56,672 nt of DNA from an uncultured Verrucomicrobiota bacterium (lineage in GTDB: Bacteria > Verrucomicrobiota > Verrucomicrobiia > Limisphaerales > UBA9464), in contig CAIVQH010000035.1 in NCBI GenBank assembly GCA_903907995.1, positions 1 through 56,672 on the forward strand, given 5' to 3'. A program made the position numbers and the translations under genes. How positions within the stretch are numbered: position 1 is the stretch's first letter; every line of letters begins with the position of its first letter. Under the pieces are notes generated by a model. That model was not told where the DNA came from. It worked only from the letters and a program-made list of their open reading frames with translations, and did not search any database. This document shows positions 8,776-53,659 of this stretch, one piece after another.

Positions 8776-9684
8776 CTAGGTCCGGGTGGAGCGCGCGAGC
8801 GCGAGTTCGATCATGCGCTGGCAAAGCTGGGGGAAACCGAGGCCGGCGGCGGCGGCGGCCTTGGGCAGCAGGCTGGTCTCGGTCATGCCCGGCAAGGTGT
8901 TGACCTCGAGCACGACCGGCGAGCCGTCGGCCTGCACCATCACGTCCACGCGACCGTAATCACGCCCGCCCACGGCCTGGAAAGCACCGAGAGCGGCGGC
9001 CTGGATACGGGCGGTCGTCGCCTCGTCGAAGGGCGCGGGGCAGAGGTACTCGGTGCGCCCGGCAGTATATTTGTTCGTGTAGTCGTAGGCTCCCTCGCGC
9101 GGGCGGACCTCCACGATGGGCAAGGCCTTGCCATCGAGGATGCCCACCGTGGTCTCGCGACCGACGATGCGCTCCTCCATCACGACCTCGCCGCCGAAGC
9201 GCAACGATTCGGCAAGCGCGGCAGGAAACTCCTCAACGCGGTCCACGAACTGCAAACCCACGCTGCTGCCCTGGCGGGTCGGTTTCAGCACCACGGGCGG
9301 CTGCCAGCCTTCGGGCCAGGGCATCACGGAATTGAAAACCGCGAACCGGGCCGTCGGCACGCCGGCGGCCAGGCAGCGGCGCTTGGTCACGACCTTGTCG
9401 AAGGCGAACAGGCTCGCGGCCACGCCGCAGCCGGTATAGGGCACGCCGAGCTGTTCCAGCTCGGCCTGCACGGTGCCGTCTTCGCCGTAAGTGCCGTGCA
9501 GCGCCAGCAGGACCGCCTCCGTTCCGGTGCCGAGTTTCAGCGCGCCCGGCAGCGGGTCCACCTCGTCCACCGTGTGGCCGAGCGACCGCAGCGCCTTGGC
9601 GACCGCCGCGCCGGAGCGGAGCGAAACCTCGCGTTCGGCGGAAGGTCCGCCGAGCAGCACGGTGAGATGGAGCGGCGCACTCAT
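8776..9684 (-). CDS. ddl: D-alanine--D-alanine ligase
   Basis: This 302-residue ATP-grasp enzyme makes D-Ala-D-Ala for the peptidoglycan stem peptide. Landmarks are the N-terminal LLGGPSAEREVSLRSG, the substrate loop LHGTYGEDGTVQAELE, the ATP-grasp segment VLKPTRQGSSVGLQFV, and the metal-binding end VLEVNTLPGMTETSLLPKA. Length and motifs match the standard DdlB type. Its ATG overlaps the murB stop by 4 bases, the usual coupling within this operon. Confidence 0.95.
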   Translation of the reverse strand: MSAPLHLTVLLGGPSAEREVSLRSGAAVAKALRSLGHTVDEVDPLPGALKLGTGTEAVLLALHGTYGEDGTVQAELEQLGVPYTGCGVAASLFAFDKVVTKRRCLAAGVPTARFAVFNSVMPWPEGWQPPVVLKPTRQGSSVGLQFVDRVEEFPAALAESLRFGGEVVMEERIVGRETTVGILDGKALPIVEVRPREGAYDYTNKYTAGRTEYLCPAPFDEATTARIQAAALGAFQAVGGRDYGRVDVMVQADGSPVVLEVNTLPGMTETSLLPKAAAAAGLGFPQLCQRMIELALARSTRT

Positions 9685-10661
9685 GACGGGTCTTCGCCGA
9701 CAATTTCCACCTCGGTCTCCAGTTCGATGCCGCGCGCCTCGCGGGCGCGGGTCTTCACGAGCTCGATCAGCGCGAGCACGTCGCTTGCGGTGGCGTTGCC
9801 GAGGTTCACGAAAAAGTTGGCGTGCACGTCGCTCACCATCGCGCCGCCGACTTTGGTGCCCTTGAGGCCCAGCTCATCAATGAGTTTGCCGGCGGGCTGC
9901 GTGGGCGAGGGATTCTTGAACGTGCAGCCGGCGCTCGGCTGGTTTGGCTGGGAATCCCACCGCTTGCGGCTGTAGGTGTCCATGCGGGCTTTCACCGTTT
10001 CCGCGTCGGTCACGGTGCCGCGGAGCACCGCGCCCACGGCGATGGCCTCGCGCAGCAGCGGGCAGGAACGGTAGGTGAACGCAACTTCGGCGACGGGGAC
10101 GTCGCGCACGGTGGCATCGCGCGTCACGTAGCGCAGGCGCTCCACCACGTCGAAGGTCCAGCTTTGCATCGCCCCCGCGTTCATGCGGAGCGCGCCACCC
10201 AGCGAGCCGGGGATGCCCTCAAGAAATTCCAGTCCGCCCAACCCTGCGCGCCGCGCCTCCGTGGCGATGAGCTTGAGCTTCGCGCCCGCGCCGGCGTGGA
10301 TGCGGTCCTCCTTCACCTCGATGGCGGAGAAGGCGGTGTGGGCGAGCGAGATCACGACTCCGCGGATGCCGCCGTCACGGATCAGCAGGTTCGAACCGCG
10401 ACCGAGCACGAAGAAGGGGACCTCCATCTGCCCGCAGATTTCGATCACGGTGCAGAGCGCGTGTTCGCAATCCGGTTCCACGTAGATGTCCGCCGGGCCG
10501 CCCACGCGCAGGGTGGTGCGCTTGGCCAATGGTTCGTCGCGGCGCAGCAGCGTTTCCAATGGCAGCGCGCCCTGCAGTTCCTCGAACAGGTCGAGCACCC
10601 GGATGGACCGTTCGGCATGGGATTCGGCCGCATTCGTGGGGTTGAACGGAACGAGATTCAT
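9681..10661 (-). CDS. murB: UDP-N-acetylenolpyruvoylglucosamine reductase MurB
   Basis: This 326-residue FAD enzyme reduces UDP-GlcNAc-enolpyruvate to UDP-MurNAc. Visible parts are TTLRVGGPADIYVEP, the FAD-binding FVLGRGSNLLIRDGGIRGVV, GIPGSLGGALRMNAGAM and the active-site stretch PSAGCTFKNP, where Cys takes the place of the Ser proton donor of E. coli MurB, a variant I believe is tolerated in the family. The C-terminus holds GTKVGGAMVSDVHANFFVN, typical of the type without the extra insertion. murC, often just before or fused to murB, is missing between murG and murB; the genes overlap by 4 bases, so nothing can be hidden there. Confidence 0.95.
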   Translation of the reverse strand: MNLVPFNPTNAAESHAERSIRVLDLFEELQGALPLETLLRRDEPLAKRTTLRVGGPADIYVEPDCEHALCTVIEICGQMEVPFFVLGRGSNLLIRDGGIRGVVISLAHTAFSAIEVKEDRIHAGAGAKLKLIATEARRAGLGGLEFLEGIPGSLGGALRMNAGAMQSWTFDVVERLRYVTRDATVRDVPVAEVAFTYRSCPLLREAIAVGAVLRGTVTDAETVKARMDTYSRKRWDSQPNQPSAGCTFKNPSPTQPAGKLIDELGLKGTKVGGAMVSDVHANFFVNLGNATASDVLALIELVKTRAREARGIELETEVEIVGEDPS

Positions 10662-11842
10662 CGGGCACCCTCCGGTTTGCCGGTGCCCATGACGTGGTCA
10701 GGTCGGGGAGTTGCCGGGGTCGCCGAGGCGAAACCGCGGTCCTTCACGTGCGCCATAATGCGGTCGGCAATTTCGGCGGCGGCGTTGGGGCGGTGGTTCC
10801 GCGCCATAGCGGCGGACATGATCTGCAACTGGCCGGGGTTATCGCAAAGCTCCGTCACGAGGCCGGCCAGTGATTGCGGGCTGGCCGACTGCTGTTCGAG
10901 CAGCACCGCGCCGCCAGTCTCGACGATGGCGTTGGCGTTGTGGAGTTGGTGATTGTCCGTCGCGGCGGGGAAGGGGACCAGGATCGCGGGCACCTGCATC
11001 GCGGCCAGTTCCGCGAGGGAGGACGCCCCACTACGGCTGACCGTCAGCGTGGCCGCCCCGAGCGGCAGCTCCATCTCGGAGCAGAAGGGCTGCACCCGCG
11101 CGCGGCGGCCCAGCGGTTCGTAAGCGGCCTTCACCGCGTCGTAATCCTGTGTGCCGGTCAGGTGGAAGAACTGGAGTTCTGGCAGCGCCGCCGTCAGCTG
11201 AGGCAGCGCGCCGACCATGAGCCGGTTGAGCCCGCTGGCCCCCTGGCTTCCGCCCACGATGAGCAGCAGCGGCTTGGCGGCGTTGAAACCCAGGGCGGCC
11301 CGCGCCCCGACTGCATCCATCGGGGAAAATTGCGGACGCACCGGCGTGCCGGTGACCGTTGCACGTTTCTGACGGAGCCGCCGGGTGGTGGCGGCGAAGC
11401 CGACGAAGCATTCGTCCACCCATGGGGCAAGCCAGCGGTTGGCCCGACCGGGAATCGTGTTCGACTCGTGGAGGAAGGTGACCGCCCCGGCGTTTTTCCC
11501 GGCGAAGACCGGCGGCGCGCTGGTGAAACCGCCCATGGCGAGGACCGCCTGCGGCGGCTGCGGCCCAAAGGCGTGTCGCGCGGCCCGCCAGGAGCGGAAG
11601 CTGGCCGCGACGAACCGCAGATAGTTGCGTCCGCTCAGGCCCACCGCCGGCAGCGTGACGATATCAAAGTCATTCGCCAGGCCACGAACCGCCTGCTGGT
11701 CCACTTCCTTGGGGGAAATGAGCAGGGTCACCCGGCTGCCGCGCGCGATCAGTTCCTGCCCGACCGCAAGACCGGGAAAGAGGTGGCCGCCGGTGCCGCC
11801 GCAGGCGATGGCTACTCGCAAGGCTGGCCGTTCCGGGTTCAT
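10658..11842 (-). CDS. murG: MurG, undecaprenyl-PP-MurNAc-pentapeptide GlcNAc transferase (lipid II synthesis)
   Basis: The 394-residue GT-B glycosyltransferase converts lipid I to lipid II at the inner face of the membrane. The N-terminal donor/acceptor loop ACGGTGGHLFPGLAVGQEL, the SGRNYLRFVAASFRSWRAAR region, LHESNTIPGRANRW and the second-domain VGGSQGASGLNRLM and VSRSGASSLAELAAMQVPAILVPFPAATDNHQ are all present. A C-terminal tail of about 25 residues (FASATPATPRPDHVMGTG) is an extension. ATGA overlaps couple it to ftsW upstream and murB downstream. Confidence 0.95.
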   Translation of the reverse strand: MNPERPALRVAIACGGTGGHLFPGLAVGQELIARGSRVTLLISPKEVDQQAVRGLANDFDIVTLPAVGLSGRNYLRFVAASFRSWRAARHAFGPQPPQAVLAMGGFTSAPPVFAGKNAGAVTFLHESNTIPGRANRWLAPWVDECFVGFAATTRRLRQKRATVTGTPVRPQFSPMDAVGARAALGFNAAKPLLLIVGGSQGASGLNRLMVGALPQLTAALPELQFFHLTGTQDYDAVKAAYEPLGRRARVQPFCSEMELPLGAATLTVSRSGASSLAELAAMQVPAILVPFPAATDNHQLHNANAIVETGGAVLLEQQSASPQSLAGLVTELCDNPGQLQIMSAAMARNHRPNAAAEIADRIMAHVKDRGFASATPATPRPDHVMGTGKPEGAR

Positions 11843-12963
11843 TCGGGCAGGTCGGTATCGAGGGTGTCGAAAGGATTGGTGGCGGACCGCTGGGACGAGG
11901 TCTCGGTCGCGCCCTGACGGGCCACGCTGACCAGCAGGCCGACCAGCGCCAGCATCAGCACCACGCCGGTGCCGCCGCGGCTGACAAACGGCAGGGGCAT
12001 GCCCTTGTTGGGCAGCAGGTCGGTCACCACGCCGAGGTTCACTGCGGCCTGCGCGGCGATCACGAAGGTGACGCCTCCGGCCAGCAGTGTGCCAAAGGCA
12101 TCGGGTGCCGCATGCGTGATCGTCGCCCCGCAGATCAGGATGACGACGAACACGCCCACGACGGCGAGGGTGAAGCCGAGGCCCAGTTCCTCACCGACCA
12201 CGGGGAAGATGAAGTCGGTGTGCTGTTCGGGAATGTTAAATTTGAAAGCGCCCCGGCCCAGCCCGGCACCGTCCACGCCACCCGCACCAAAGGCGTAAAG
12301 TGACTCCTGCACCTGCTGGTAGTCGTCCTTGTTCTGTTCCGGATGTATGAAGGCGTTCACGCGTTTCATCGCGTAGTCGCTGTTCATCACCAGCGCGGCA
12401 AAGCCGGCGGCGCAGAGCAGCGCCGGCAGCGTCACGTGCCACCAGCGGACGCCGGCCACGAGCATCAGGAGGAAGGTCACCAGCCCGAGCAGCAGCGTGG
12501 TGCCCTTGTCCGGCTCAACCAGGACCAGCGCGAGCGGCGGGGCGGCGATGGCGGCCATGCCGAGCACGCCGGAGAAAAAGTGGCCCATCCGGTGCGGGAA
12601 CCGGGCGCCGAACCAGGCCAGAGCCACCACCAGGCCGAGCTTGGCGAACTCGGAAGGCTGGATGCCGAAGAGCCAGCGCTGGGCGCCCTTCATGCTCGTG
12701 CCCAGTGGGGTGAGCGTGAGCAGCAGCAGCAGCACGCAGGCCCCGTAGAGCGGCCAGGCGAAGCGTTGCAGCAGGTGGTAGTCAATCCGCGCCATCACCC
12801 ACAGCGCCACGAAGCCGACCCCGCAGGCGATGGCCTGCTTCAGCACCCAGGTGTGGAGCAGTGAATCGCCACCCTTGAGCATGGTGGCGCTCGCGAGCAT
12901 CACCACGCTGAGGGCGACCAGCGAGCCGACGGCCAGCAGCAGGGTCGTGATGATGCGGTTCAT
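11839..12963 (-). CDS. ftsW: FtsW/SEDS family peptidoglycan glycosyltransferase
   Basis: The 374-residue product is a polytopic SEDS protein with about ten membrane segments. Characteristic stretches include KGAQRWLFGIQPSEFAKLGLVVALAWF, LVEPDKGTTLLLGLVTFLLMLVAG, EQHTDFIFPVVGEELGLGFTLAV and the C-terminal LPNKGMPLPFVSRGGTGVVLMLALVGLLVS. SEDS proteins polymerise lipid II together with a class B PBP such as the FtsI in this cluster. The gene starts directly after a terminator-like hairpin and T-run (12970-13020) with no visible Shine-Dalgarno sequence, which is unusual for a gene in the middle of an operon. Confidence 0.94.
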   Translation of the reverse strand: MNRIITTLLLAVGSLVALSVVMLASATMLKGGDSLLHTWVLKQAIACGVGFVALWVMARIDYHLLQRFAWPLYGACVLLLLLTLTPLGTSMKGAQRWLFGIQPSEFAKLGLVVALAWFGARFPHRMGHFFSGVLGMAAIAAPPLALVLVEPDKGTTLLLGLVTFLLMLVAGVRWWHVTLPALLCAAGFAALVMNSDYAMKRVNAFIHPEQNKDDYQQVQESLYAFGAGGVDGAGLGRGAFKFNIPEQHTDFIFPVVGEELGLGFTLAVVGVFVVILICGATITHAAPDAFGTLLAGGVTFVIAAQAAVNLGVVTDLLPNKGMPLPFVSRGGTGVVLMLALVGLLVSVARQGATETSSQRSATNPFDTLDTDLPE

Positions 12964-13031: not shown

Positions 13032-13886
13032 TTACTTGGGCAGGCCCGCGCCGGTTGCGGGCGGCAGGGTCACCGTTGTGGGCGTCGCGACCGGAGCGGT
13101 CGGGGTCGGGGTTGCGGCCGGCGTGGGTTCGGTTGCCTTGCCCGGAATCTTCAGCTTCTGGCCAACCTTGATCTCATTCGATTTGAGACCGTTGGCGGCA
13201 CGGATGGCTTTCACGGTGGTGCCGTGCCGCTTCGCGATTTTGGTGAGGTTGTCACCGCCCTTGACGGTGTAGGTCGAGGTCTCGCCCATGGCGGCGGATT
13301 CGCCGGCGCTCTCCGTCGTCTTGTGGCCGACGGAAGCCGTGGTGGAGGAGCCGCTGCTGGCCGGGATCTGGATGGTCTGGCCGACCTTCAGCTTGCCGAG
13401 GTCCACGTTCGGGTTGGCCTCCTTCAGGGCCTTCAGCGTCACGCCGTGTTTCTTGGCGAGGTTTAAGGCGATGTCGCCCTTCTGAATCTTGTATTCGGAG
13501 GCGGACGTGGAGGCCGGCGTCGAATCAGGCGTCGTGGCCGGCGCGGCTGTGATGGGCGCCGGCTCAAAATTGGTGCCGATGGCCAGGGGCGGCAGGTTGG
13601 TGCCCCCGATGGGGCCGGCACCGAGCCCGGCGCCGTTGGTGGAAAGCCCGCCGATGATGGGCGAATTCGTGTCGTTCAGCATCGGGGACGTGTTGGTGAA
13701 GGTGTCCGCCAAGCCCCCCGTCTCGGCACCCTTGTTCTCCTCGCGCTTGCAGCCGAGGATCAGGAAGCCGCCGAGGACGACGGAATGCAGGAAGACGATC
13801 AGGCCCGCGACGTGGAGGGACGATTTGCTCTTGGCCTGCTTTTCCAGCAGCGAGCCTTGGGGTGCGAGTGGGTTCGGAGTGCTCAT
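13032..13886 (-). CDS. Membrane-anchored protein with two LysM domains
   Basis: The 284-residue product has a hydrophobic segment at 26-45 ([20 protein letters not shown]) ending LGC, which could be a membrane anchor or an imperfect lipobox. A Gly/Thr/Pro-rich linker follows, then LysM 1 at about 131-175 ([19 protein letters not shown]...) and LysM 2 at about 205-248 ([18 protein letters not shown]...), and a Pro/Thr/Ala-rich tail. LysM domains bind glycan strands of peptidoglycan. There is no attached hydrolase, so it is probably a binding or scaffold factor. It occupies the place between mraY and ftsW where murD is found in most dcw clusters. Confidence 0.85.
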
Positions 13887-14285: not shown

Positions 14286-14317
14286 AATTCGGAATTTGGA
14301 ATTTGGAATTCGAAATT
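14286..14317. repeat. GGAATTT-type short repeat next to the mraY stop
   Basis: The sequence AATTCGGAATTTGGAATTTGG and the following AATTCGAAATTT form two GGAATTT units flanked by AATTC, partly self-complementary (GAATTC and AAATTC/GAATTT pairs). It abuts the mraY stop codon and is AT-rich against a GC-rich background. It probably belongs to the widespread class of GGAATT/GGATTC extragenic repeats (inference). Confidence 0.55.
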
Positions 14318-15445
14318 TCATCGGACCTTCAGCGTGCTCAGCGCGACCACCGCGCAGAGGATTGCGACGATGTAAAACCGCGCCACAATCTTGGACTCGG
14401 CCAGACCCTTTTTCCGGAAATGGTGATGCAGCGGTGACATCAGGAATATGCGCCGGCCCTGCCCGTACTTCCGCTTGGTGATCTTGAACCAGCCCACCTG
14501 CAGCATCACGCTCACGGCTTCCGCCACGAAGACGCCGCCGGCGATGAACAGCACAAACGGCTGATGGATGAGCACCGCCATGAGGCCCAGCAACCCGCCG
14601 ATGGCCAGCGAGCCGGTGTCGCCCATGAACACCTCGGCCGGATGGCAGTTGAACCAGAGGAAGCCGAGACACGCCCCAATCAGGGCGGCGCATACGACCG
14701 TGAGTTCCGACGCGCCGGTCACGTGCGGCACGAGCAGATACTTCGCAAACACCGCGTTGCCCGCGATGTAGGTCATCACGAGAAACACCAGCGTGCAGAT
14801 CAGCGTGCAGCCGATGGCGAGGCCGTCCATGCCGTCCGTGAGGTTCACGGCATTGCTGCTGCCCACAATTGTAAACACCGTCAGCAGCCCGCCGAGGATC
14901 GGCAGCCCCACGAGCAGCGGCGCCTTGAGGAAGGGCACCTGGATCTCGCTGACCAGGGCCGTGGTGGAGGGCAGCCGCCAGAGGTACACCGCGATGAAGG
15001 CGGCCAGGAGGAACTGCGTGCAGAGCTTCACGCGCGACCTGGCACCCTCGGCGTCCTGCTTGGTCACCTTCAGCCAGTCGTCATAAAAACCGAGGCCCGC
15101 GAGCACGATGGTGGTCAGCGCGGTGAGGAGCACGAGCGGGTTCCACTGCGCCCAGAGGAGCACCGAGAGGTCCAGCGCCAGCACGATCAGGATTCCGCCC
15201 ATCGTGGGCGTGCCGCGCTTCGCCGTGTCGGCGGCGGCGGCCGAGGAGTCGGTCTGCCCCTCCTTCACGTCCTTGGGGCGGTAATCCTGCCGGAACTTGA
15301 GGTCGCTCAGCCAGGCGATGAGCCTGGGGCCGAGCAGCATCGAGAGCAGCAGCGCCGTGACGGCCGCGCCCGCGCTGCGGAAGGTGACGTATCGGAACAC
15401 CGACCACGGCGCAAACGGGAACAGTTCTGACAGGCGGTAAAGCAT
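14318..15445 (-). CDS. mraY: Phospho-N-acetylmuramoyl-pentapeptide transferase MraY
   Basis: The 375-residue polytopic membrane enzyme transfers phospho-MurNAc-pentapeptide to undecaprenyl phosphate to make lipid I. Signature elements are KRGTPTMGGILIVLALDLSVLLW, the catalytic acidic motif FYDDWLKVTKQ (Asp pair), NAVNLTDGMDGLAIG and the C-terminal MSPLHHHFRKKGLAESKIV with the three-histidine loop. Length is standard. It begins 3 bases after the murF stop. Confidence 0.96.
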   Translation of the reverse strand: MLYRLSELFPFAPWSVFRYVTFRSAGAAVTALLLSMLLGPRLIAWLSDLKFRQDYRPKDVKEGQTDSSAAAADTAKRGTPTMGGILIVLALDLSVLLWAQWNPLVLLTALTTIVLAGLGFYDDWLKVTKQDAEGARSRVKLCTQFLLAAFIAVYLWRLPSTTALVSEIQVPFLKAPLLVGLPILGGLLTVFTIVGSSNAVNLTDGMDGLAIGCTLICTLVFLVMTYIAGNAVFAKYLLVPHVTGASELTVVCAALIGACLGFLWFNCHPAEVFMGDTGSLAIGGLLGLMAVLIHQPFVLFIAGGVFVAEAVSVMLQVGWFKITKRKYGQGRRIFLMSPLHHHFRKKGLAESKIVARFYIVAILCAVVALSTLKVR

Positions 15446-15448
15446 GGT

Positions 15449-16858
15449 TCAGGCGGCGAGCAGGTCCCTCCGCAACCCGGTCTGTTTGATAATCACCTCC
15501 ACCAGCCGCTCGAGCCGGCTGGAACGCGAGGCCTTCACCAGCACCGTGTCGCCGGCACGCAGGTAATGCAGCAGCGCGGGGGCCGCCAGCTCCACGCCCG
15601 GGAAGGCGCAGGCGCGGTCCGTGCCGGCGGATTCGGCGGTGAGCACCGACCAGCGGCCCACGGCAAACACGGCGTCGATTCCCAGGCGGGCGGCCGCTCG
15701 ACCGACCTCCGCGTGCGCGGTCTCGGAGTGGCGGCCCAGTTCCGCCATATCGCCAAGCACCGCCACACGGCGGCCCGCACACGGGAGGTCGGAGAGCGTT
15801 TGCAGCGCCGCCAACATGGAGTCGGCATTCGCGTTGTAAGTGTCGTCCAGTACCCGGATGCCCGCGACCTCGCGGACATTGAGACGCTGTTTTGCAGGGA
15901 CAGAAACCGCCAGGCCGTCGCGGGCGTCGCCAGGCGACATGCCCAGCTCACAGACGACCGCCAGTCCTAACAGCGCGTTGGGAACTGAATGACGGCCTGG
16001 CAAAGGGATCGTGAATTCGCCGCACCATTCGGGTCGGGGTGCGGTCACGGAAAAGGTCGTGGCGGTCCACGTCATCTGGCGGATTTCAGCGCGCCATTCG
16101 TTGGCGGGACCAAAGCCGACCCGAACCACGCGCGCGCGGGTGCGGCCCGCGAGATGTTTCTGGAACGAACATTCGCCATTCAGCACCAGCACCCCCCCCT
16201 CGGCGGCGGCGGGCAGCAGTTGGGCCAGCGCACCTTCCTCGGCGGCGACGCCGGCGAGGTCGCCGAAAAATTCCAGATGCTCGCGGCCGATGCTGGTGAT
16301 GATGCCGATGCGCGGCGCGATCATCTCCACGAGCGGTGCCAGCTCGCCCGGATGGTTGGTGCCGGCCTCCAGCACGGCGGCGCCGTGCGTCGGCTCCAGT
16401 CGCAGCAGCGTGGCGGGCACGCCGATGTCGTTGTTGAAGCTTGCCTCGCTCCGTAGGGTGGGAAATTTGCGGGCCAGCAGGCTGGCCAGAATCTCCTTCG
16501 TGGTCGTTTTGCCATTGGAGCCGCCGACGCAGATCACCGGCAGGTCGAACTGCCGCCGATACGCCGCCGCGATCCGGCCATAGGCCGACCGGGTCTCCTC
16601 CACTATGATGGCCGGCGTCTGGGGCGGCAGTTTCGCCAGCTGGCTGCGCGCGATGACGACCGCTACCGCCCCTTTGGAGCGGACCTCCGCAAGAAAATCG
16701 TGGCCGTCAAACCGTTCACCGGACACGGCGACGAACAGGTCACCGGGCCGCACCTCCCGTGAGTCCGTGACCACGCGCGACACCATGGTTGCAGGAGAAA
16801 TCAGGAGCGATTCCCCGCCCGTGGCGGTCACAAAGAAGCTGAGGGGGCGCGGGTCCAT
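15449..16858 (-). CDS. murF: UDP-MurNAc-tripeptide--D-Ala-D-Ala ligase MurF
   Basis: The 469-residue Mur ligase adds the D-Ala-D-Ala dipeptide. The ATP P-loop is intact (VGGSNGKTTTKE, residues 111-122), with FNNDIGVPATLLRL, the metal-binding VLEAGTNHPGELA and GREHLEFFG segments, central-domain LPGRHSVPNALLGLAVV and the C-terminal DDTYNANADSMLAALQTL. It is the only fully preserved Mur ligase in this window and a useful internal comparison for the degenerate MurE-like protein. It is packed against the SIMPL gene (1 base) and mraY (3 bases). Confidence 0.95.
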   Translation of the reverse strand: MDPRPLSFFVTATGGESLLISPATMVSRVVTDSREVRPGDLFVAVSGERFDGHDFLAEVRSKGAVAVVIARSQLAKLPPQTPAIIVEETRSAYGRIAAAYRRQFDLPVICVGGSNGKTTTKEILASLLARKFPTLRSEASFNNDIGVPATLLRLEPTHGAAVLEAGTNHPGELAPLVEMIAPRIGIITSIGREHLEFFGDLAGVAAEEGALAQLLPAAAEGGVLVLNGECSFQKHLAGRTRARVVRVGFGPANEWRAEIRQMTWTATTFSVTAPRPEWCGEFTIPLPGRHSVPNALLGLAVVCELGMSPGDARDGLAVSVPAKQRLNVREVAGIRVLDDTYNANADSMLAALQTLSDLPCAGRRVAVLGDMAELGRHSETAHAEVGRAAARLGIDAVFAVGRWSVLTAESAGTDRACAFPGVELAAPALLHYLRAGDTVLVKASRSSRLERLVEVIIKQTGLRRDLLAA

Positions 16859-16859
16859 G

Positions 16860-17609
16860 TTACCTCATCGTGAACGCGGCGTTGACCACGGCGGTGATGG
16901 TTTTTTCGCGGCTCGTGGTGTCGTTGCGGCCTTCCCAGCTCGTCTCGCTGGAATAGAGCGGCGTGATCTGGAAGACGCCCATCTTGGCCGAGCGCAGCCC
17001 GCCGATGCTGCGTCCGCCCTGAACTGAAATCTGGTCGGCCCGCGCGCGGGCGTCCTTCGTCGCCTCGGCGAGCATTTCGACCTTGGCATCGCCGGCCTTG
17101 GTATAGACGAACTCCGGTGCGGCGGGCGCGAGCTGCACGCCCTGCTCGACGAGCGTGGCGGAGTCGCGGTCCAGCTGCATCACGCGGTCCACGTCGGCCG
17201 AGCGGATCTCGACCTTCTGCTCCAGCTTGTAGCCGACAATGTGCGTGCTGGAGGTTTCCCCGCCGTTGTTCTTGAGGGTCTGGCGTCCTTCCATCTCGTT
17301 GATCACGATCGGGGTGAACGTGTGGTTGGTGATGCCGCCGGCGGCGAAGAAGGCGGCCACCTTCGCGCGGTCCTCCTTCAGCCGCTGCTGCGCCTCGAGC
17401 AGCGTACCGGCGGTCACGTTGAAAGTGGCGCGCCACACGATGAAATCGGCCGTGACATTGCGGCGCGCGGAGCCGGTGACCGCGATGGAGTCGGAGTCCG
17501 CAATCTTGAGCCACGTGCGTGTGAAGAGCATCGCCGAAAGCACGAGGCCGGCGGCGAGGAACAGCCCGGCCAGCACCCCGAAGAGCTGGGGCCGGTAGGT
17601 GGCATTCAT
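16860..17609 (-). CDS. SIMPL-domain (DUF541) protein, membrane-anchored
   Basis: The 249-residue product starts with a membrane segment (PQLFGVLAGLFLAAGLVLSA) and continues with a SIMPL/DUF541 domain: SIAVTGSARRNVTADFIVW, LLEAQQRLKEDRAKVAAFF, DVDRVMQLDRDSATLVEQG and AEATKDARARADQISVQGG, ending near the predicted fold boundary. SIMPL proteins are periplasmic or membrane-attached and some are linked to oxidative stress or signalling, but there is no general biochemical role. ATG 17609 is preferred; a GTG at 17627 in frame would add MNATQP-like residues. Its place between the murE-like and murF genes is unusual and suggests an envelope function. Confidence 0.8.
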   Translation of the reverse strand: MNATYRPQLFGVLAGLFLAAGLVLSAMLFTRTWLKIADSDSIAVTGSARRNVTADFIVWRATFNVTAGTLLEAQQRLKEDRAKVAAFFAAGGITNHTFTPIVINEMEGRQTLKNNGGETSSTHIVGYKLEQKVEIRSADVDRVMQLDRDSATLVEQGVQLAPAAPEFVYTKAGDAKVEMLAEATKDARARADQISVQGGRSIGGLRSAKMGVFQITPLYSSETSWEGRNDTTSREKTITAVVNAAFTMR

Positions 17610-17634
17610 GGGCTGGGTGGCGTTCACAGGCGGT

Positions 17635-17749: not shown

Positions 17750-17818
17750 GCGCTGGCAGCCCGAGGATTTCCGTTACAACTCAGTTCCTCCGTCTCCATA
17801 GCCTCGGGCTGCCAGCGC
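17750..17818. repeat. Perfect 17-bp inverted repeat enclosing the murE-like stop codon
   Basis: GCGCTGGCAGCCCGAGG (17750-17766) and CCTCGGGCTGCCAGCGC (17802-17818) are perfect reverse complements separated by 35 bases. The right arm lies in the last codons of the murE-like gene and its stop codon (17774-17776) is in the loop. The RNA would form a very stable stem at the end of that message. No T-run follows, so it could be an mRNA stabiliser, a boundary element or a short mobile repeat. Confidence 0.8.
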
Positions 17819-19093
17819 TGAAATTGCGGTCGCATGGTCGTCGCAGGGCAGGACGGCCCCGCCGACCTCCTGGACGCGCCGGTGCGCCTTGCCCGCGATC
17901 ACCGCGACGTCGTCCGGTCCGGCGATCCGGATGGCGGCATGCACGGCGCGCTCACGGTTCGGTTCGAAGATGAACCGGGCGGCGGGCGCGGAACTCATCA
18001 TCTGGGCGGACAGCGCCATGACTGACTCGTGCCGCGGGTTGTCGGCGGTCACAAAAATGCGGTCGGCCGCCGAGGCGACGCGCCCCAGCTCGATCCGGGT
18101 GGCGGCGTCAAACTCGGCGGGAGCGCCGGTGACGAGCAGCAGGCGGCCCGGGCCACGCACGAGTTCGCGTGCCTCGGCCAGCACCGTCGCCAGCTCCGCC
18201 GGCGTATGTGCCGCATCCAGGAAGACACCGAATGGCTGGCCCGCATGGACAGGTTCCAGAAAGCCGGAAGTGGTCCGCAAAGTCTTCAGTGAGGCCAACA
18301 GTGGCTTGCGCGCCGCGCCGGCGGCGAGTGCCGCCTCGAACGCCTCGCGCAGGGCGAGGGCGTTGCCCCGGCCGGCCAGTGGTGCCAGCAGAAATCCATC
18401 CGACAACGGCAGGCGCAGGCCGCGCCAGGTCAGCACCGTGTCCGGGGCCAGCGGGCGGGATTCGGTCAGGGCGACCGCCCCGGCAAACTCAGTGCCGGCC
18501 AGATTGGTGCCGGTATTGCCCGTGAGTTCGATGACGGCAGAGTTGCCCCCGGCGCGCTCGTGCTGGGCGAGGAACGAGTGGAGTTCCAGGGCGTCCATTT
18601 TGGAGACGGGCCGGGGCAGGCGGCGGTCGCCGGCCTCGCAGCCAAGTTCACCGAGCAGGGCGACGTCACGTCCGGTGGCGCGCAGCAGCCGGGCAAGCAG
18701 GGTCGCGACATTCGAGGAATGGCGGCGGGTTCCGGGAGCCGCTTTGTCGGGCGCCTCGACGATGAACAGTTCGAGCCGTTGCGCGGCGTTGCCGAAGAGC
18801 GCCGAAGCCGCCTCCGCGTAGGCCGCGTGGGCGTCCGCGACTTCCAGGCGCGGCAGGTTCGGCGGCAGCATCGTGTCCGGCTCGCAGATGATGGCGGCCG
18901 CCCCGCGCTCGGCGGCGGCGAAGACCTGGTACGGGTTCGCCCCGCGCGATTCCGGCAGCAGGCAGAAGACGAAGCCGGGCTCGACGCTGCGCGCGTCGTG
19001 CGTGACGCCGTGCACCAGCCGCTCGCCCACACCCCGCGCGGCGAGGCGAGCGTTGCTTAATTTGCGGGCGAAACTGGAGAGGGGCAGTTGCAT
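17774..19093 (-). CDS. Degenerate MurE-like Mur ligase homologue, P-loop lost
   Basis: The 439-residue product sits exactly where murE is expected (after ftsI) and starts at the ATG 19093, 1 base after the ftsI stop. MurE landmarks kept: the N-terminal domain (VTHDARSVEPGFVFCLLP, residues 30-47; GAAAIICEP), GRDVALLGELG at 141-151, MDALELHSFLA, the C-terminal LDAAHTPAEL (292-301; normally DYAHTPDAL) and TADNPRHES (349-357; the DNPR motif that reads meso-diaminopimelate). Lost: the TGTNGKT P-loop, replaced by EAPDKAAPGTRRHSS (113-127), the H-L-D metal/ATP segment with about 70 residues of the core domain, and GKGHE, which reads GKAHRR. Ligase activity looks impossible; a substrate-binding or structural role is possible (inference). 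Confidence 0.8.
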   Translation of the reverse strand: MQLPLSSFARKLSNARLAARGVGERLVHGVTHDARSVEPGFVFCLLPESRGANPYQVFAAAERGAAAIICEPDTMLPPNLPRLEVADAHAAYAEAASALFGNAAQRLELFIVEAPDKAAPGTRRHSSNVATLLARLLRATGRDVALLGELGCEAGDRRLPRPVSKMDALELHSFLAQHERAGGNSAVIELTGNTGTNLAGTEFAGAVALTESRPLAPDTVLTWRGLRLPLSDGFLLAPLAGRGNALALREAFEAALAAGAARKPLLASLKTLRTTSGFLEPVHAGQPFGVFLDAAHTPAELATVLAEARELVRGPGRLLLVTGAPAEFDAATRIELGRVASAADRIFVTADNPRHESVMALSAQMMSSAPAARFIFEPNRERAVHAAIRIAGPDDVAVIAGKAHRRVQEVGGAVLPCDDHATAISALAARGYGDGGTEL

Positions 19094-19094
19094 G

Positions 19095-21176
19095 TCAGGG
19101 ACGGGCGGCGAGATGGGTGGCACCGCCGGCCGGCAGGACCATGGCAGTGGTGTCGTTGGTGCGGGGCGTCGGGGGCAGAGCGAGATAGCTGCCGACTTCC
19201 TGGCCGATCTTGGCGAAAAGCGGGGCGCAGGCCTTGCCGCCATAGGAGGCCTTGCCCTTCAGGGTCGGCTCGTCGGCGGCCAGCATGATGCAGACTTCCG
19301 GGTTTTCCGCCGGGAAGAAGCCGACGAACGAGGCGTAATAACGGTCGGCCGCATACACTTTCCGGACCGGGTCCCATTTCTTGGCCGTGCCGGTCTTGCC
19401 GGCCACGTCGAAGTCCGCCAGCGCCGCCAGCTTACCGGTGCCGACCACCACCACCCGGCGCATGGCGCGGATCATCTGGTGGGCGGTTTCCGGCCGGATG
19501 ACCTGCCGCACCGCGTGAGGTTCAAACTGGCGGACGGTTTTCCCGTCCGCGGTCGTGAGCCGGCGGACCAGGTGCGGCTCCATCAGCATGCCGTCGTTCG
19601 CGATGGCGGCGGCGGCCATGGCCGTCTGCAGCGGGGTTGCATACAGGCCATACCCGAAGGGCAAACTGCTGGAGGTGAGCCCGTCCCAGCGGGGGATGCC
19701 GCCGCCGTGCTCGCCGCCGCATTCAATGCCGGTGCGGGCGAGGAAACCGAAATTGCGGATGTAGGGCAGAAGCGAATTGGTGCCGACCTGCAGACCGAGC
19801 TTCACGGCCCCCACGTTGCTGGAGTGGGCAAAGGCATCTTCCACCGTCGTGAGGCCGATGTTTTCACCCTGATCGTCACGGATCACGCGGCGGGTGCCGG
19901 GCACGTTCCAGCGGCCACCTTCGCAGTTGATCGGCTGTTCCAGACTGACCAGCCCCAGATCCAGCGCGGCGGAATAGGTGACCATCTTGAAGGTCGAACC
20001 CGGTTCGGACGGCTGCATGATCGCACGGTTCTGCAGCACCTCGAGCGAGGAGACATGGCGGGTGTTCGGGTTCCACGTCGGCCGGTTGGCCAGGGCGAGG
20101 ATTTCACCCGTGCGGGGCCGCAGGACGATGGCGCTGATGCTCTTCGGGTTGAGCGTGCGCATCGCGTCGTCCAGCACATCCTCGACGATTGCCTGGATGT
20201 TCGCGTCCAGGGTCAGAACCACGTTGAGACCGTCCGTCGGCGGGATTTCCTGCTGCCGCAGCGGCACCAGCTCACGGCCGCCGGCGCGGCGGGTTTCGAT
20301 CATGCCGTGCGAACCCTGCAGCTCGCGGTCGAACCGCTGCTCAATGCCGGAGGCTCCCAGAAGTTTGACCGGCAGACGCACGCCGGGGGCGGGAACTTCG
20401 CTGCTGTTGGTGGCGTAACCGAGGACGTGGGCGGCCCGGTGGTCGAGGGGGTAGCGCCGCAGCTCCACGATCTCGGGATACAGCCCGGCGACGCGACACT
20501 CGTTGGCATTGCTGCGCACGAGCGCGATCTCCGTGTTCAAGGTCTTGAACTGCGCCTTGGTCTGGCGCGACAGGCGCAGGCGCTCGGGCAGGTTCCACCA
20601 GGGCAGCGCCTTCCTGGCCGTGTCTCTGGCCGTGATCAGGTTGCTCTTGGTCGTGGCCAGCTCGATTTCACGCTGATAGCGGTTGGTCGTGAAGAAGGCC
20701 TCCAGCGCCATCCACCGCTCCATCGGCAGGTTGGTGAAGACGCCGTTGTTGTGCCGCATGCGCTCGCGCTGGCCAAGCTGCGGGATTCTCACCTGGCCAT
20801 TGGTCACCCATTTGTTGGTAACTGCCTGAAGGTAGAGCGAGGGCTTTAGCCGGGTGAGCACCTCGGACTCCGGGAGTCCGACATAGGGTGCGACGATATG
20901 GGCCACCTCCGGCGAGAACTCACCCACCTTCAGGGGGTCGGCCCGGACTGTGACCGCGAACTCCGAGAGCAGGAGCGGAACGCCGTTGGCATCCAGCACC
21001 GAACCGCGCCGCGCCGGGCGCATCACCCGGCGCAACGTGGCGTCGGCCGAATGCTCGGAAGGATGGGCGGGCTGGATCGCCTGCACAAACACGAGCCGAC
21101 CGGCGAGCACGGCAAAGCCCACACAGTACAGGGCAACAATGCCCCATAGGCGTCGGGTTTGGCTGGTCGGGTTCAT
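19095..21176 (-). CDS. ftsI: Class B penicillin-binding protein FtsI/PBP3 (peptidoglycan transpeptidase)
   Basis: The 693-residue protein has an N-terminal membrane segment (WGIVALYCVGFAVLAGRLVFV), a long non-catalytic PBP dimer domain with an inserted helical stretch, and a transpeptidase domain. The catalytic motifs are SxxK at about residue 394 (GSTFK), SxN at about 452 (SSN) and KTG at about 594 (GKTGTAKKW). It forms septal cross-links together with FtsW. The ATG at 21176 is preferred, just after the ftsL-like stop; the frame extends upstream to 21233, but that part overlaps ftsL and lacks a signal-like start. Confidence 0.94.
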   Translation of the reverse strand: MNPTSQTRRLWGIVALYCVGFAVLAGRLVFVQAIQPAHPSEHSADATLRRVMRPARRGSVLDANGVPLLLSEFAVTVRADPLKVGEFSPEVAHIVAPYVGLPESEVLTRLKPSLYLQAVTNKWVTNGQVRIPQLGQRERMRHNNGVFTNLPMERWMALEAFFTTNRYQREIELATTKSNLITARDTARKALPWWNLPERLRLSRQTKAQFKTLNTEIALVRSNANECRVAGLYPEIVELRRYPLDHRAAHVLGYATNSSEVPAPGVRLPVKLLGASGIEQRFDRELQGSHGMIETRRAGGRELVPLRQQEIPPTDGLNVVLTLDANIQAIVEDVLDDAMRTLNPKSISAIVLRPRTGEILALANRPTWNPNTRHVSSLEVLQNRAIMQPSEPGSTFKMVTYSAALDLGLVSLEQPINCEGGRWNVPGTRRVIRDDQGENIGLTTVEDAFAHSSNVGAVKLGLQVGTNSLLPYIRNFGFLARTGIECGGEHGGGIPRWDGLTSSSLPFGYGLYATPLQTAMAAAAIANDGMLMEPHLVRRLTTADGKTVRQFEPHAVRQVIRPETAHQMIRAMRRVVVVGTGKLAALADFDVAGKTGTAKKWDPVRKVYAADRYYASFVGFFPAENPEVCIMLAADEPTLKGKASYGGKACAPLFAKIGQEVGSYLALPPTPRTNDTTAMVLPAGGATHLAARP

Positions 21177-21177
21177 G

Positions 21178-21585
21178 TCAGCGGGTGGCGGTGGCCAGGG
21201 TCGGGCCGGTACGAACCGGCGTACGCCGCTCATTTTCCACCGGCACGGGAACCGGAAGCGGCAAGGGGCCGGAGGCCGGCAGGGTTAGGAAAAGACGTTG
21301 GGACGGGCTCACATTCACCAGACCCAGATCCAGTTCCTGCATGCGCTGACGGAGCTGAGCAGGTGACGAGAGCTGCGCCTGCAGCACACGCTGCTGCTGG
21401 ACGGCGGTCGCCAGTTCCTGCGCGCGGCGTTCCAACACCACGACCTGCTCGCCCAGGCGCTGATGTGCCTTGCGTTGCAGCACATAGCCCAGCGTCATGC
21501 CCGCCATCGCGCAGACCGCGAAGAGCACGAACCCGAAGGTCTGCCAGCGGAGCGCCCGGACATCGCGTTTTTGGTTCTTGGCCAT
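21178..21585 (-). CDS. ftsL: FtsL-like bitopic division protein
   Basis: The 135-residue product has the size, position (between rsmH and ftsI) and topology of FtsL: a basic N-terminus (MAKNQKRDVRALRW), one membrane span (TFGFVLFAVCAMAGMTLGYVL, about 16-36) and a heptad-rich coiled coil (HQRLGEQVVVLERRAQELATAV) in the periplasmic part. FtsL sequences are poorly conserved, so the call rests on context and architecture. The C-terminus is Pro-rich. It is 2 bases from rsmH and overlaps no start of ftsI. Confidence 0.75.
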   Translation of the reverse strand: MAKNQKRDVRALRWQTFGFVLFAVCAMAGMTLGYVLQRKAHQRLGEQVVVLERRAQELATAVQQQRVLQAQLSSPAQLRQRMQELDLGLVNVSPSQRLFLTLPASGPLPLPVPVPVENERRTPVRTGPTLATATR

Positions 21586-46992: not shown

Positions 46993-49900
46993 TCAGGGAA
47001 TCGCTCTGAGCCGGATAAACTGGTTGCCGACCGCCGTCATGGCCACATCCAGTGACAGGCGAGTGCCATCACCGGCAACCGGCGGCACCACCTGCGTCCA
47101 GGTATTCGAATCCAGGCTGGCGGCCGATTCCACGACATAACGGGTGCCGATGACGCTGCTCCATTCCAGATGCAGGGTTCCGGACACGGCGACGCTCCCA
47201 TCGAGGCGCAGACGGGCCACGTTGGCGGCGCCGGGTGTGGGCTGTGTTTGGAAGAGCAGGGTGGGCCCGCCGTCCGGCGAGCGTCCCTCACTGACGTCGG
47301 GCGACTGCGGGCCGAACGTGACGGTATCCACCGGGGTTCCGTCCGGGGCGAACAGGCCGATGGCCTCGCCCTTGGCCGACAGCTGGAAATTGACATGCAG
47401 GTCCGGCACGTCGGGCGCATTCAAGGCGGGCAGGCCGTCTGCCCAGACGAGCAGCCGTCCCCCCGGCTCGATTCCGTATCCTGCCGGAATCTTGAACTGG
47501 GCCGGCTGGGAAAGGGTGTCGGTGAGGTAATATCCCGAAAGGTCGGCGCTGGTCGGGCCGGCGTTGTAGAGTTCGAACCAGTCACTGAAGCGGTTGCCGC
47601 CGCCGGCATGGTCCGCCACAAAGGTGGCATTGTCGGCCATCCATTCATTGATGAACACCTGGGGCAGGCTGGAAACGGCTCCGGTGTAAAGCACGGTGCC
47701 GCCGGCGTTGAGGCCTGGAATCACCGCGCCCTGCGGGTCCAGCGCCGTGAAGGCAAGGACGTTGGTCGCCTGGAGCAGGGTTACACTGGCAGACCAGTTC
47801 GTCACCGAAGTCCATGTCACCGGGACCACCACCCCGTTCACCTGGATGGACTTCACGCCGATCGGCGCGGAGCCGGTCACCGTCAGCGGGCTGGTGGCCG
47901 TGGTCGCGGGCAGGGCGGGGGCGATGGCAAACGGCACGGCCAGCTGGTCGAGCTGCGCCTGGAGCGCGATCCGCCGGTCGTTGAACCAAGTCTTCACCGC
48001 GTCCGGCGCGGTCAGTGTGGACCCGTCACAATAGCGGATGCCATTTGCGACATAAGAGGCATAGCGCGCCGCCAGCTGGGGCTCGTACTGGTTCGCGCGC
48101 AGCGGTCCGGCGACGGCCCGCTGGATCGCGCGGAAGTAGGCGCGCCGGAACGGCGGATGGTTGTACATCCGGGTCACCGTCGGATCGCTGGCCACGAAGA
48201 GCGGCCCCGTCTTGGCGGTGTAGGTTGGATTGAAGTTGGGGGCCGCGAGCATGAGCCAGTCGAGGTCGAACATGTAGATCTGCCATTTTCCCAGCTTGGG
48301 CTTGTAGGCGTACATGTTCTTGCCGATGACGTGGCCCCAGCTGTCGAAGTTGTTGATGATGTGCTCGGCGGCAAAGATGCCCATCCACTCCTCCACATCC
48401 ACGAGCGCGTCCGTCTGCTGGGTGTACTGGGTGATGTCCGCGACATTCACGGCCGTCACCAGATCGAAGATGTTCGTGTAATTGTTGGGGTCCGAACCTG
48501 CGCGCTTGTTCCAGTTCCAACGATAGCGCGCCAGCTTCTTTGCGCCGCCGGTGGTGGTGAACACCTGCAGGGTGGGCTCCGGATCGGCGACAAGCGAGCC
48601 CCCGTCGCTGAATTCAAACCCCCGGTCCACCTTGAAGAAGTCACCGTTCGAATCGGCCGGCATCCACGCCTTCAGGAATTCCGAGGCGGGCTGGTTGACC
48701 GCCTCAAAGATGGTGCCGCGCTGGTCGTCGGTCACCCCATTGAGGTGAAGCCGGACCGCGTAACGGTAGCAGGTGGGCAGGGCCATCTTGCCCGCCATCC
48801 AGTAGGCCATCTGTTCCTGCAGCGCGGTCGTTTCATTCCCGTGCCCGCCGGGCCAGTCGAGCACCATGTCGGCGTTGCCCAGGAGGACATCGTCATCCGG
48901 AAAGGTGATGCTGTAGCCGCAACGGCCGCAGTTGGGGCCGCAGTACCCCGGCGCTATGTAGGGGCTGCCGGCATAGAGGACCTTGGTGTTGTGAATGACC
49001 CGCTGGTTCCCGAGCACGAAGGTGCAGTCGAGCGGCGTGTTGTTCAGCTTGCTGCGCGAATCCCACGCGCTGAAATTGGCCTGCGTGACCCAGACCCGGT
49101 AGAGGGGGATGTTGCCGGAGGGCTGCTGCTCGCCAAAGCGGATCAGCGCCTCGCCGGTAGAGTCGGCCGACGGATAGCGCGTGATCGCATTGCCCGTGGC
49201 GGCAGGGCTGTCCTGGGCTGTCACCGTATAGGCCACCAGCATGCCGGCTGGTTGGGCGGGGATGGTGCCGGTGTAAATGCCGTCTCCGGCCACGGCGTCT
49301 CCGCCGGTGCCATCATCGGTCATGGCAACCGATTTCACCGTGGTGGCCGGATCAAGTCGGTAGTTCACCCGCACCAGGGGGTTGGCCACGAGCGAGCTGA
49401 TCCGCGCCGTGACGCGGACCGGCTGCTGGTCCGCCGGCAACACCGGCGCATGCGTGACCTCGCGGATTCCCGGCGGCGCGGCCGCCTGGAAACGGCTGTT
49501 CGGCGAACCGGGCGTGCCGGCCGAGACCGGCAGATTCATGGCCCCGGGTGCCTCCATCCAGTTGCCCCGGATGCGCAACAGGAGCGTGGGTGAACCCCGG
49601 AGCCAGCGGGCCTGCGCCTTGATGGTCACGACCGTTCCCTGCCGGACGGCCGAGGTCAGCGGGCTGCGGACGCGGTTGACCTGGTTGTCGCCCCGCTCCA
49701 CCGCCCGCAGGTGGAGCGCCTGGTTGCTCTGAAATCCGCCGGTCGTTTCGAGCGAGCTCGTGACCATCGTTCCCTCGGCCGTCCACCCGGTCAGGCCGGT
49801 CTCGAAGGTTCCGTTGGCGATCAGGTTGACCCCCTTGTCATCGCGGACCTCGAGGTTGTCGATGAGCGCCTCGCCCGTGCCTTGCAGGAGAATCTGGAGC

Positions 49901-53328: not shown

Positions 53329-53659
53329 GATGACAGGGTTTTGAGAAACGACAGGGCGCAGGTGAGTCGACAAAGGATTGACGGTGAACTTCCCCAAACC
53401 TTAGCAAACCGGGGACCAAGTTTCCACGCCGTAATCCTTGAAACCGCGATCACCGATCGTGTCCGGAACGTGAATCCTTCCAATTGGGCGGCGGGCGATC
53501 TGGATGCTCAGCAAGCTTCGGGCTGGGCCGGATAGCCTGTGGCCCAATGGTTTCGTGGAAAATCAGTCCCAACAAGTGCCGGGACAAAGGCTTGAACCGG
53601 GTCGCGGGCACGCGAACGACAACCAACCACCGTCAGAGAGCCACTAAGCCGGCCCACGA
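53329..53659. other. 331-base gap between CotH protein and anti-sigma factor
   Basis: No gene is supported. The stretch has a possible weak stem (TGGGCC...GGCCCA at about 53523-53545) but nothing resembling a terminator or a repeated element. Frames crossing it have no domain and low coding appearance. Confidence 0.5.

Follow-up and report, generated by a model that had tools for sequence, protein, structure and literature searches.

The gene that stands in the murE position of the dcw cluster of an uncultured Verrucomicrobiota bacterium (Limisphaerales; UBA9464) encodes, as judged from its sequence, a MurE pseudoenzyme, in which the fold is predicted to be kept and neither the ATP-binding loop nor the Mg/carbamoyl-lysine centre is left. 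The gene is part of the window, which is the whole stretch of DNA that was analysed and comprises 56,672 nt (contig CAIVQH010000035.1, assembly GCA_903907995.1). Apart from a few exceptions in draft data, no MurC, no MurD and no working MurE were found in the family of this bacterium. The chances appear evenly balanced that the order is abandoning the MurC-MurD-MurE ladder altogether, with the wall tripeptide attached en bloc by Mpl, which would make its members either the first known peptidoglycan-peptide scavengers or the bearers of an undiscovered tripeptide synthase, and with dead MurE and decaying MurD serving as non-catalytic parts of a Mur assembly. MurE, known also from Verrucomicrobium spinosum, is the UDP-MurNAc-L-Ala-D-Glu:meso-DAP ligase. 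The MurC-MurD-MurE ladder has long been held indispensable for peptidoglycan, and the enzymes MurC to MurF are treated as essential antibiotic targets.

The murE-like gene and its product

The cluster has the order mraZ-rsmH-ftsL-ftsI-murE-like-SIMPL-murF-mraY-(LysM-like)-ftsW-murG-murB-ddl-ftsQ-ftsA-ftsZ, several of the names being presumed, and the murE-like gene lies directly after ftsI, where the initial annotation had placed it (Table 1). A longer frame of the same ORF begins at 19243, inside ftsI. Neither murC nor murD was found in the cluster of the window. Several genera have a SIMPL/DUF541 gene that separates murE-like (or ftsI) from murF, as does a distant family (L185); others have none at that place. 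Elsewhere in the window, positions 46993-53397 encode a secreted-looking protein of 2134 aa, with parts that appear to be lamin-tail and CotH-like.

Table 1. Features of the murE-like gene, its product and the surrounding cluster in the window
Feature	Position	Strand	Evidence
murE-like gene (putative pseudoenzyme), 439 aa, ATG at 19093, murE position after ftsI	17774..19093	-	ORF, Pfam, NCBIfam, alignment, predicted model
ftsI (transpeptidase), directly upstream of murE-like	19095..21233	-	PF00905 2.9e-67
SIMPL/DUF541 protein, between murE-like and murF	16860..17627	-	PF04402 2.6e-19; position shared by several relatives
murF, P-loop intact	15449..16858	-	TIGR01143, 377 vs cut-off 288.6 bits
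mraY	14318..15445	-	TIGR00445
LysM-like protein gene (presumed name), between mraY and ftsW, no murD found there	13032..13886	-	ORF; same place in relatives
ftsW, murG, murB, ddl (presumed names); cluster goes on without murC	8776..12963	-	ORFs; same order in relatives
EAPDKAAPGTRRHSS, residues 113-127, at MurE P-loop GTNGKT site (E. coli 116-121)	18713..18757	-	alignment with E. coli MurE and 33 order MurE
Junction after about residue 211; DHLD/carbamoyl-lysine stretch of middle domain missing	18450..18470	-	alignment; stretch length
AHTP, residues 295-298, kept in window protein	18200..18211	-	His kept in 2/30 family loci
DNPR, residues 351-354, kept in window protein	18032..18043	-	Arg kept in 17/30 family loci
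GKAHRR, residues 401-406, MurE has GKGHE	17876..17893	-	Gly-Lys kept in 30/30 family loci

The Pfam models recognise Mur_ligase_C in the murE-like protein (1.5e-18) and an N-terminal domain that remains sub-threshold (15.1 bits against a cut-off of 21), with no match to the middle domain, Mur_ligase_M. The protein scores 163.4 bits with the NCBIfam murE model TIGR01085, which is under the cut-off of 257.3, a value that fails to part dead from live MurE since it is exceeded by four P-loop-less MurE of families f15 and f57, two of them on their own and the other two once pieces are added.

Relatives were sought with the window protein in 50 genomes from nine genera of the family and were present in 37 of these, belonging to seven genera. 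Thirty of the loci were read, the window's own included, and the loci of the other seven genomes were left out. The proteins were aligned with E. coli MurE (NC_000913.3, numbered with Met) and with a comparison set, selected by high score, of 33 MurE from this order, all of which keep GTNGKT. The initial annotation had described a replaced P-loop, a missing H-L-D core stretch and a GKGHE motif altered to GKAHRR in the window, and the alignment bears out all three. The sequence EAPDKAAPGTRRHSS occupies the GTNGKT site, and across the family the P-loop is present in none of the 30 loci and its lysine is lost in every one, so that the survey of relatives proposed at that stage found the loss to be conserved. 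The DHLD columns (E. coli 210-213) are gaps in 29/30 loci and Lys225 is a gap in all 30, whilst the middle stretch (E. coli 128-300) measures 101-125 aa in the family as against 171-173. Arg390 is likewise lost in 30/30. The AHTP and DNPR motifs, which had also been listed, are indeed present in the window protein but are not conserved across the family (Table 1). With the ATP-binding loop and the Mg/carbamoyl-lysine centre lost, the protein should be unable to add diaminopimelate.

The predicted model has the MurE fold, with a mean pLDDT of 84.3 (14 sequences), and among the re-examined Foldseek matches, to which the fold comparison is confined, it superposes on E. coli MurE with a Z of 33 (2.8 A over 406 residues) and on the plastid protein PAP11 (9epc) with a Z of 33 over 334. 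The sequence relatives in the PDB are MurE enzymes, a MurE-MurF fusion (the best, 2.2e-28), MurF and the plant plastid MurE-like PAP11. The window protein is hence homologous to MurE and is predicted to adopt its three-domain Mur fold. With the E. coli ligase it shares the place after ftsI, the homology, the predicted fold and part of DNPR and GKGHE; unlike the ligase, it is without the P-loop, the DHLD/carbamoyl-lysine stretch and R390, and falls under the curated cut-off. The stretch EPVHAGQP is invariant in 14/14 murE-like sequences, and a recognisable N-terminal domain is missing in nine sequences, all of genus g7.

Mur ligases in the family and the order

The genome to which the window belongs is a draft of 60 contigs that is 95.67% complete. 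It contains three PF08245 proteins, MurF, Mpl and FolC; no murE over the cut-off was found anywhere in it, nor any MurC, MurD or MurI. The idea that the gene is a decaying paralogue of a functional MurE encoded elsewhere is therefore not supported for this draft genome. Within the 50 family genomes the number of PF08245 proteins is exactly three in 36, one or two in ten (six of which are <90% complete) and four or five in four. The extra proteins of G047 and G041 resemble MurF (28-34%) and are apparently the products of accessory genes, and the coordinates of those of G009 and G023 indicate partial matches at the ends of contigs. The accessory Mur-ligase-M genes (L105 and L107 in G047; L108 in G041:C237) are perhaps part of a separate peptide-making cluster, the neighbours of L108 being presumably ATP-grasp genes. 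That MurC and MurD are simply too divergent to be seen is unlikely for the family, given the PF08245 search at E<=0.001. The glutamate racemase MurI is over the cut-off in 0/50 family genomes, with a match of any kind in 4/50, of which that in G037 is partial (107 bits) and at a contig end. All such absence calls rest on curated models and draft genomes.

The order was sampled with 156 genomes carrying 62 family labels (limits of E<=1e-60 for murD and Mpl, E<=1e-95 for murC and E<=1e-10 for murI). Over the cut-offs, murE is found in 73 genomes, murD in 91, murC in 38 and murI in 42; Mpl is found in 144 at E<=1e-60 and in 139 over its cut-off. The murE count is an overestimate, because nine MurE read from families f57, f15 and f33 are also without a P-loop and four of these pass the cut-off. 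When only genomes that are >=90% complete and <=5% contaminated are considered (n=92), 33 of them, from 17 families, are without MurC, MurD, MurE and MurI by the curated models, yet have Mpl. Of the remainder, 17 retain MurD and Mpl alone, 14 possess the complete set, and other combinations occur in 28. Mpl accompanies 51 of the 53 such genomes without murE over the cut-off, the exceptions being G145 and G162, the latter of which, with no Mpl match and no MurE over the cut-off, keeps a MurD.

A tree of 51 chosen taxa was built from MurF, MraY, RsmH and FtsW with FastTree and midpoint rooting (support >=0.9 at 37/48 nodes; RsmH missing in 18 taxa and FtsW in two). Counted as irreversible, the losses of MurE on this tree number seven and those of MurD also seven, numbers that depend on the tree and its root. 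Five of the seven MurE losses have left a dead protein behind, namely one in f1, two in f15 and one each in f33 and f57.

MurD was read from one genome per family, and from four in f57. Its P-loop is altered to GTNGKG in f22 and f60, to GTNGKE in f43 and to GTNGRG in f8, and a lysine that we take, from its position, to be the carbamoylated one is replaced in f22, f60, f43, f8, f57, f33 and f51. The MurD of f2 and f6 have other motif changes, and that of f21 looks intact. Several MurDs of the order hence appear to be decaying too, which makes MurD a second such Mur ligase. Both the altered P-loop and the lysine replacement occur in the products of the MurD genes L178 (G070), L180 (G108), L181 (G164) and L186 (G091), whose genomes gave no match to MurC or MurE. 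In G147 (L211; f15) and G088 (L187; f40), all MurE motifs are intact, MurC and MurD both stay under their cut-offs and the cluster contains no murD. The substrate of these MurE would have to come from elsewhere, and the presence of an intact MurE without MurC and MurD indicates that the picture is not one of a simple one-step switch.

Mpl and possible sources of the tripeptide

The Mpl of the window's own genome (contig C31) passes the TIGR01081 equivalog model with a score of 437.7 against a cut-off of 388.7, and stays under the murC cut-off (314 against 335). It contains a P-loop and the (S/T)AFFDKRSK signature, as defined in the available part of PMC3060825. The 23 family loci that match this Mpl, itself included, are 69-100% identical, with GTHGKT in 23/23 and the AFFDKRSK signature in 21/23. 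A stretch of 25 bases, 24 of them identical, is shared between the window (14294-14318, in the region of the mraY 3' end) and the mpl frame of the same genome (L127 9295-9319), and would suggest the insertion of an interspersed repeat into mpl.

For the Psychrobacter Mpl, the accessible text of PMC3060825 gives 260 per min with the tripeptide, its preferred substrate, compared with 0.7 for L-Ala and 1.4 for L-Ala-D-Glu; it also describes complementation of murC(ts) in E. coli by mpl in multicopy. In that text Mpl is a non-essential recycling enzyme that operates beside MurC-E, whereas here it is the sole ligase found that could charge UDP-MurNAc with a peptide. The explanation to which we incline, with somewhat better than even confidence, is that Mpl attaches a preformed stem tripeptide to UDP-MurNAc and that MurF then completes the product, so that MurC, MurD and MurE are dispensable and dead MurE is kept in a non-catalytic capacity. 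If Mpl carries the flux, each of the three ligases would become redundant and could disappear in whatever order, in line with the patchy pattern of their loss alongside a nearly constant Mpl and MurF. Against such a bypass it counts that no source of the tripeptide was found, and that net growth on a recycling ligase would require tripeptide supplied from outside or made anew. The supply could come from scavenged peptidoglycan peptides or from a novel ligase, and these are alternative tripeptide sources within the Mpl bypass rather than competitors to it.

The first source would make these bacteria peptidoglycan-peptide auxotrophs, dependent on L-Ala-D-Glu-DAP peptides that come from the cell walls of other bacteria and are charged by Mpl. 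This is a serious possibility, although one that we hold at somewhat less than even. It is favoured by the retention of Mpl where MurC, MurD, MurE and MurI are not found, and it has a precedent in Tannerella forsythia, which, in the portion of PMC5388701 available, no longer carries out early steps of peptidoglycan synthesis and relies on fragments for the sugar MurNAc. That organism differs in lacking sugar rather than peptide steps and in its use of AmpG (same portion of PMC5388701), which was not found in the family here: no AmpG (TIGR00901) is over the cut-off in the 50 family genomes and there are seven weak matches, with a model that is narrow, since it is over the cut-off in only 2/14 control genomes. 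A peptide-binding protein is not universal either, as there is one SBP_bac_5 protein in the window's own genome and none in G035, which has the same losses. As a marker of salvage this protein was rejected as not discriminating, being found in 77/92 of the good order genomes and in 6/7 family genomes. Moreover, one would hardly expect an auxotrophy to be shared by the genomes with these losses, which range from 2.3 to 8.8 Mb and come from 24 of the 62 families sampled. The absence of MurI is weak support for salvage, because DapF can make D-Glu in Chlamydia trachomatis and the same has been proposed for other PVC bacteria without MurI (PMC5885031, as far as its text is available), and the loss of MurI was accordingly given up as proof.

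The second source, which is held more tentatively, is a de novo route in which a novel non-Mur ligase, for example an ATP-grasp enzyme plus an epimerase, makes the free tripeptide for Mpl to attach. Such a route would account for net growth better than salvage does, as well as for the near-universal Mpl (144/156) and for the loss of MurC, MurD and MurE in various orders. What speaks against it is that no candidate gene was seen in the surroundings of mpl; by eye, no operon partner is conserved between genera in the loci inspected, although neighbours recur inside genus g1.

In the consulted part of a 2025 study, Verrucomicrobiota is stated to encode all dcw genes and probably to divide canonically, and the mur genes of V. 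spinosum are essential (PMC12283558). What that part of PMC12283558 states would be contradicted by a lineage that keeps MurF, MraY, MurG, FtsW and FtsI but yields no MurC, no MurD and no active MurE. No published description of this combined loss was seen among the matches listed from the open-access literature (titles and the starts of abstracts). For the Mpl bypass, whether Mpl can replace the ladder becomes a directly testable question.

Retention of the dead MurE

The murE-like gene is under purifying selection, as is its neighbour murF. By the Nei-Gojobori method dN/dS is 0.056-0.291 for murE-like and 0.067-0.309 for murF over the same ten chosen pairs, which are not independent and are uncorrected for codon bias; the dN/dS check suggested in the initial annotation thus came out on the side of selection. 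The frames are open in 30/30 loci from seven genera, that of L039 being cut by the end of its contig. Taken together, the P-loop loss, the dN/dS values and the predicted fold make the protein, as judged from its sequence, a pseudoenzyme under selection.

An alternative is slow decay, whereby dead MurE is a functionless relic that is held by its place in the cluster, for instance through coupling to ftsI, and is on its way to being lost. The gene was not found in 13/50 family genomes searched with the window protein, and in six clusters read from such genomes (L091-L096) it is cleanly absent whilst murF stays, which implies that its role is dispensable in some genera; the nine g7 sequences without a recognisable N-terminal domain point the same way. 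Against this stand the open frames, a dN/dS as low as that of murF and the invariance of stretches such as EPVHAGQP, and slow decay is judged unlikely.

It is proposed instead that dead MurE is retained for a function that requires no catalysis. The selection, the predicted intact fold and the invariance of EPVHAGQP and of the GK in GKGHE point to what is probably a structural role. A role as a diaminopimelate-binding scaffold is weakened by the DNPR arginine being found in only 17/30 loci, by Arg390 being found in none and by the nine g7 sequences, from which it also follows that the conserved function is unlikely to be the binding of UDP-MurNAc. The protein may be a scaffold or regulator, as the initial annotation had suggested. 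Most likely the protein would be a structural partner of MurF or of a Mur assembly, as its position, fold and selection suggest. Selective maintenance of dead Mur ligases would mean that this enzyme family also serves non-catalytic roles.

Two known systems provide parallels. PAP11/MurE-like of the plant plastid RNA polymerase (8r5o, 9epc, 8w9z) is a MurE-fold protein that has become a subunit of another complex; it is among both the sequence and the fold matches of the window protein, and the likeness is one of sequence and fold only. It differs in being eukaryotic, in its length of 768-774 aa and in being part of an RNA polymerase. The MurE-MurF fusion (8f5d) demonstrates that a permanent pairing of MurE with MurF is possible. 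In contrast to that fused enzyme, the protein here is separate from MurF and without the catalytic residues, and a SIMPL gene lies between the murE-like gene and murF.

An assembly artefact or frameshift, by which the true gene has a P-loop or MurC, MurD and MurE sit in gaps, could appeal to the draft state of the window's own genome but has a negligible probability and is refuted for the family as a whole, since the P-loop-less state recurs in 30/30 family loci from separate assemblies, with replacements that differ between genera and so reflect no shared error, murC and murD are absent from unbroken clusters and most family genomes have no further PF08245 protein. The initial annotation had already dismissed sequencing error on the grounds of the intact P-loop in the neighbouring MurF, which recurs in all 28 family loci examined. 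One locus with the family cluster and its dead MurE (L083) comes from a record titled Akkermansia muciniphila, which is probably mislabelled.
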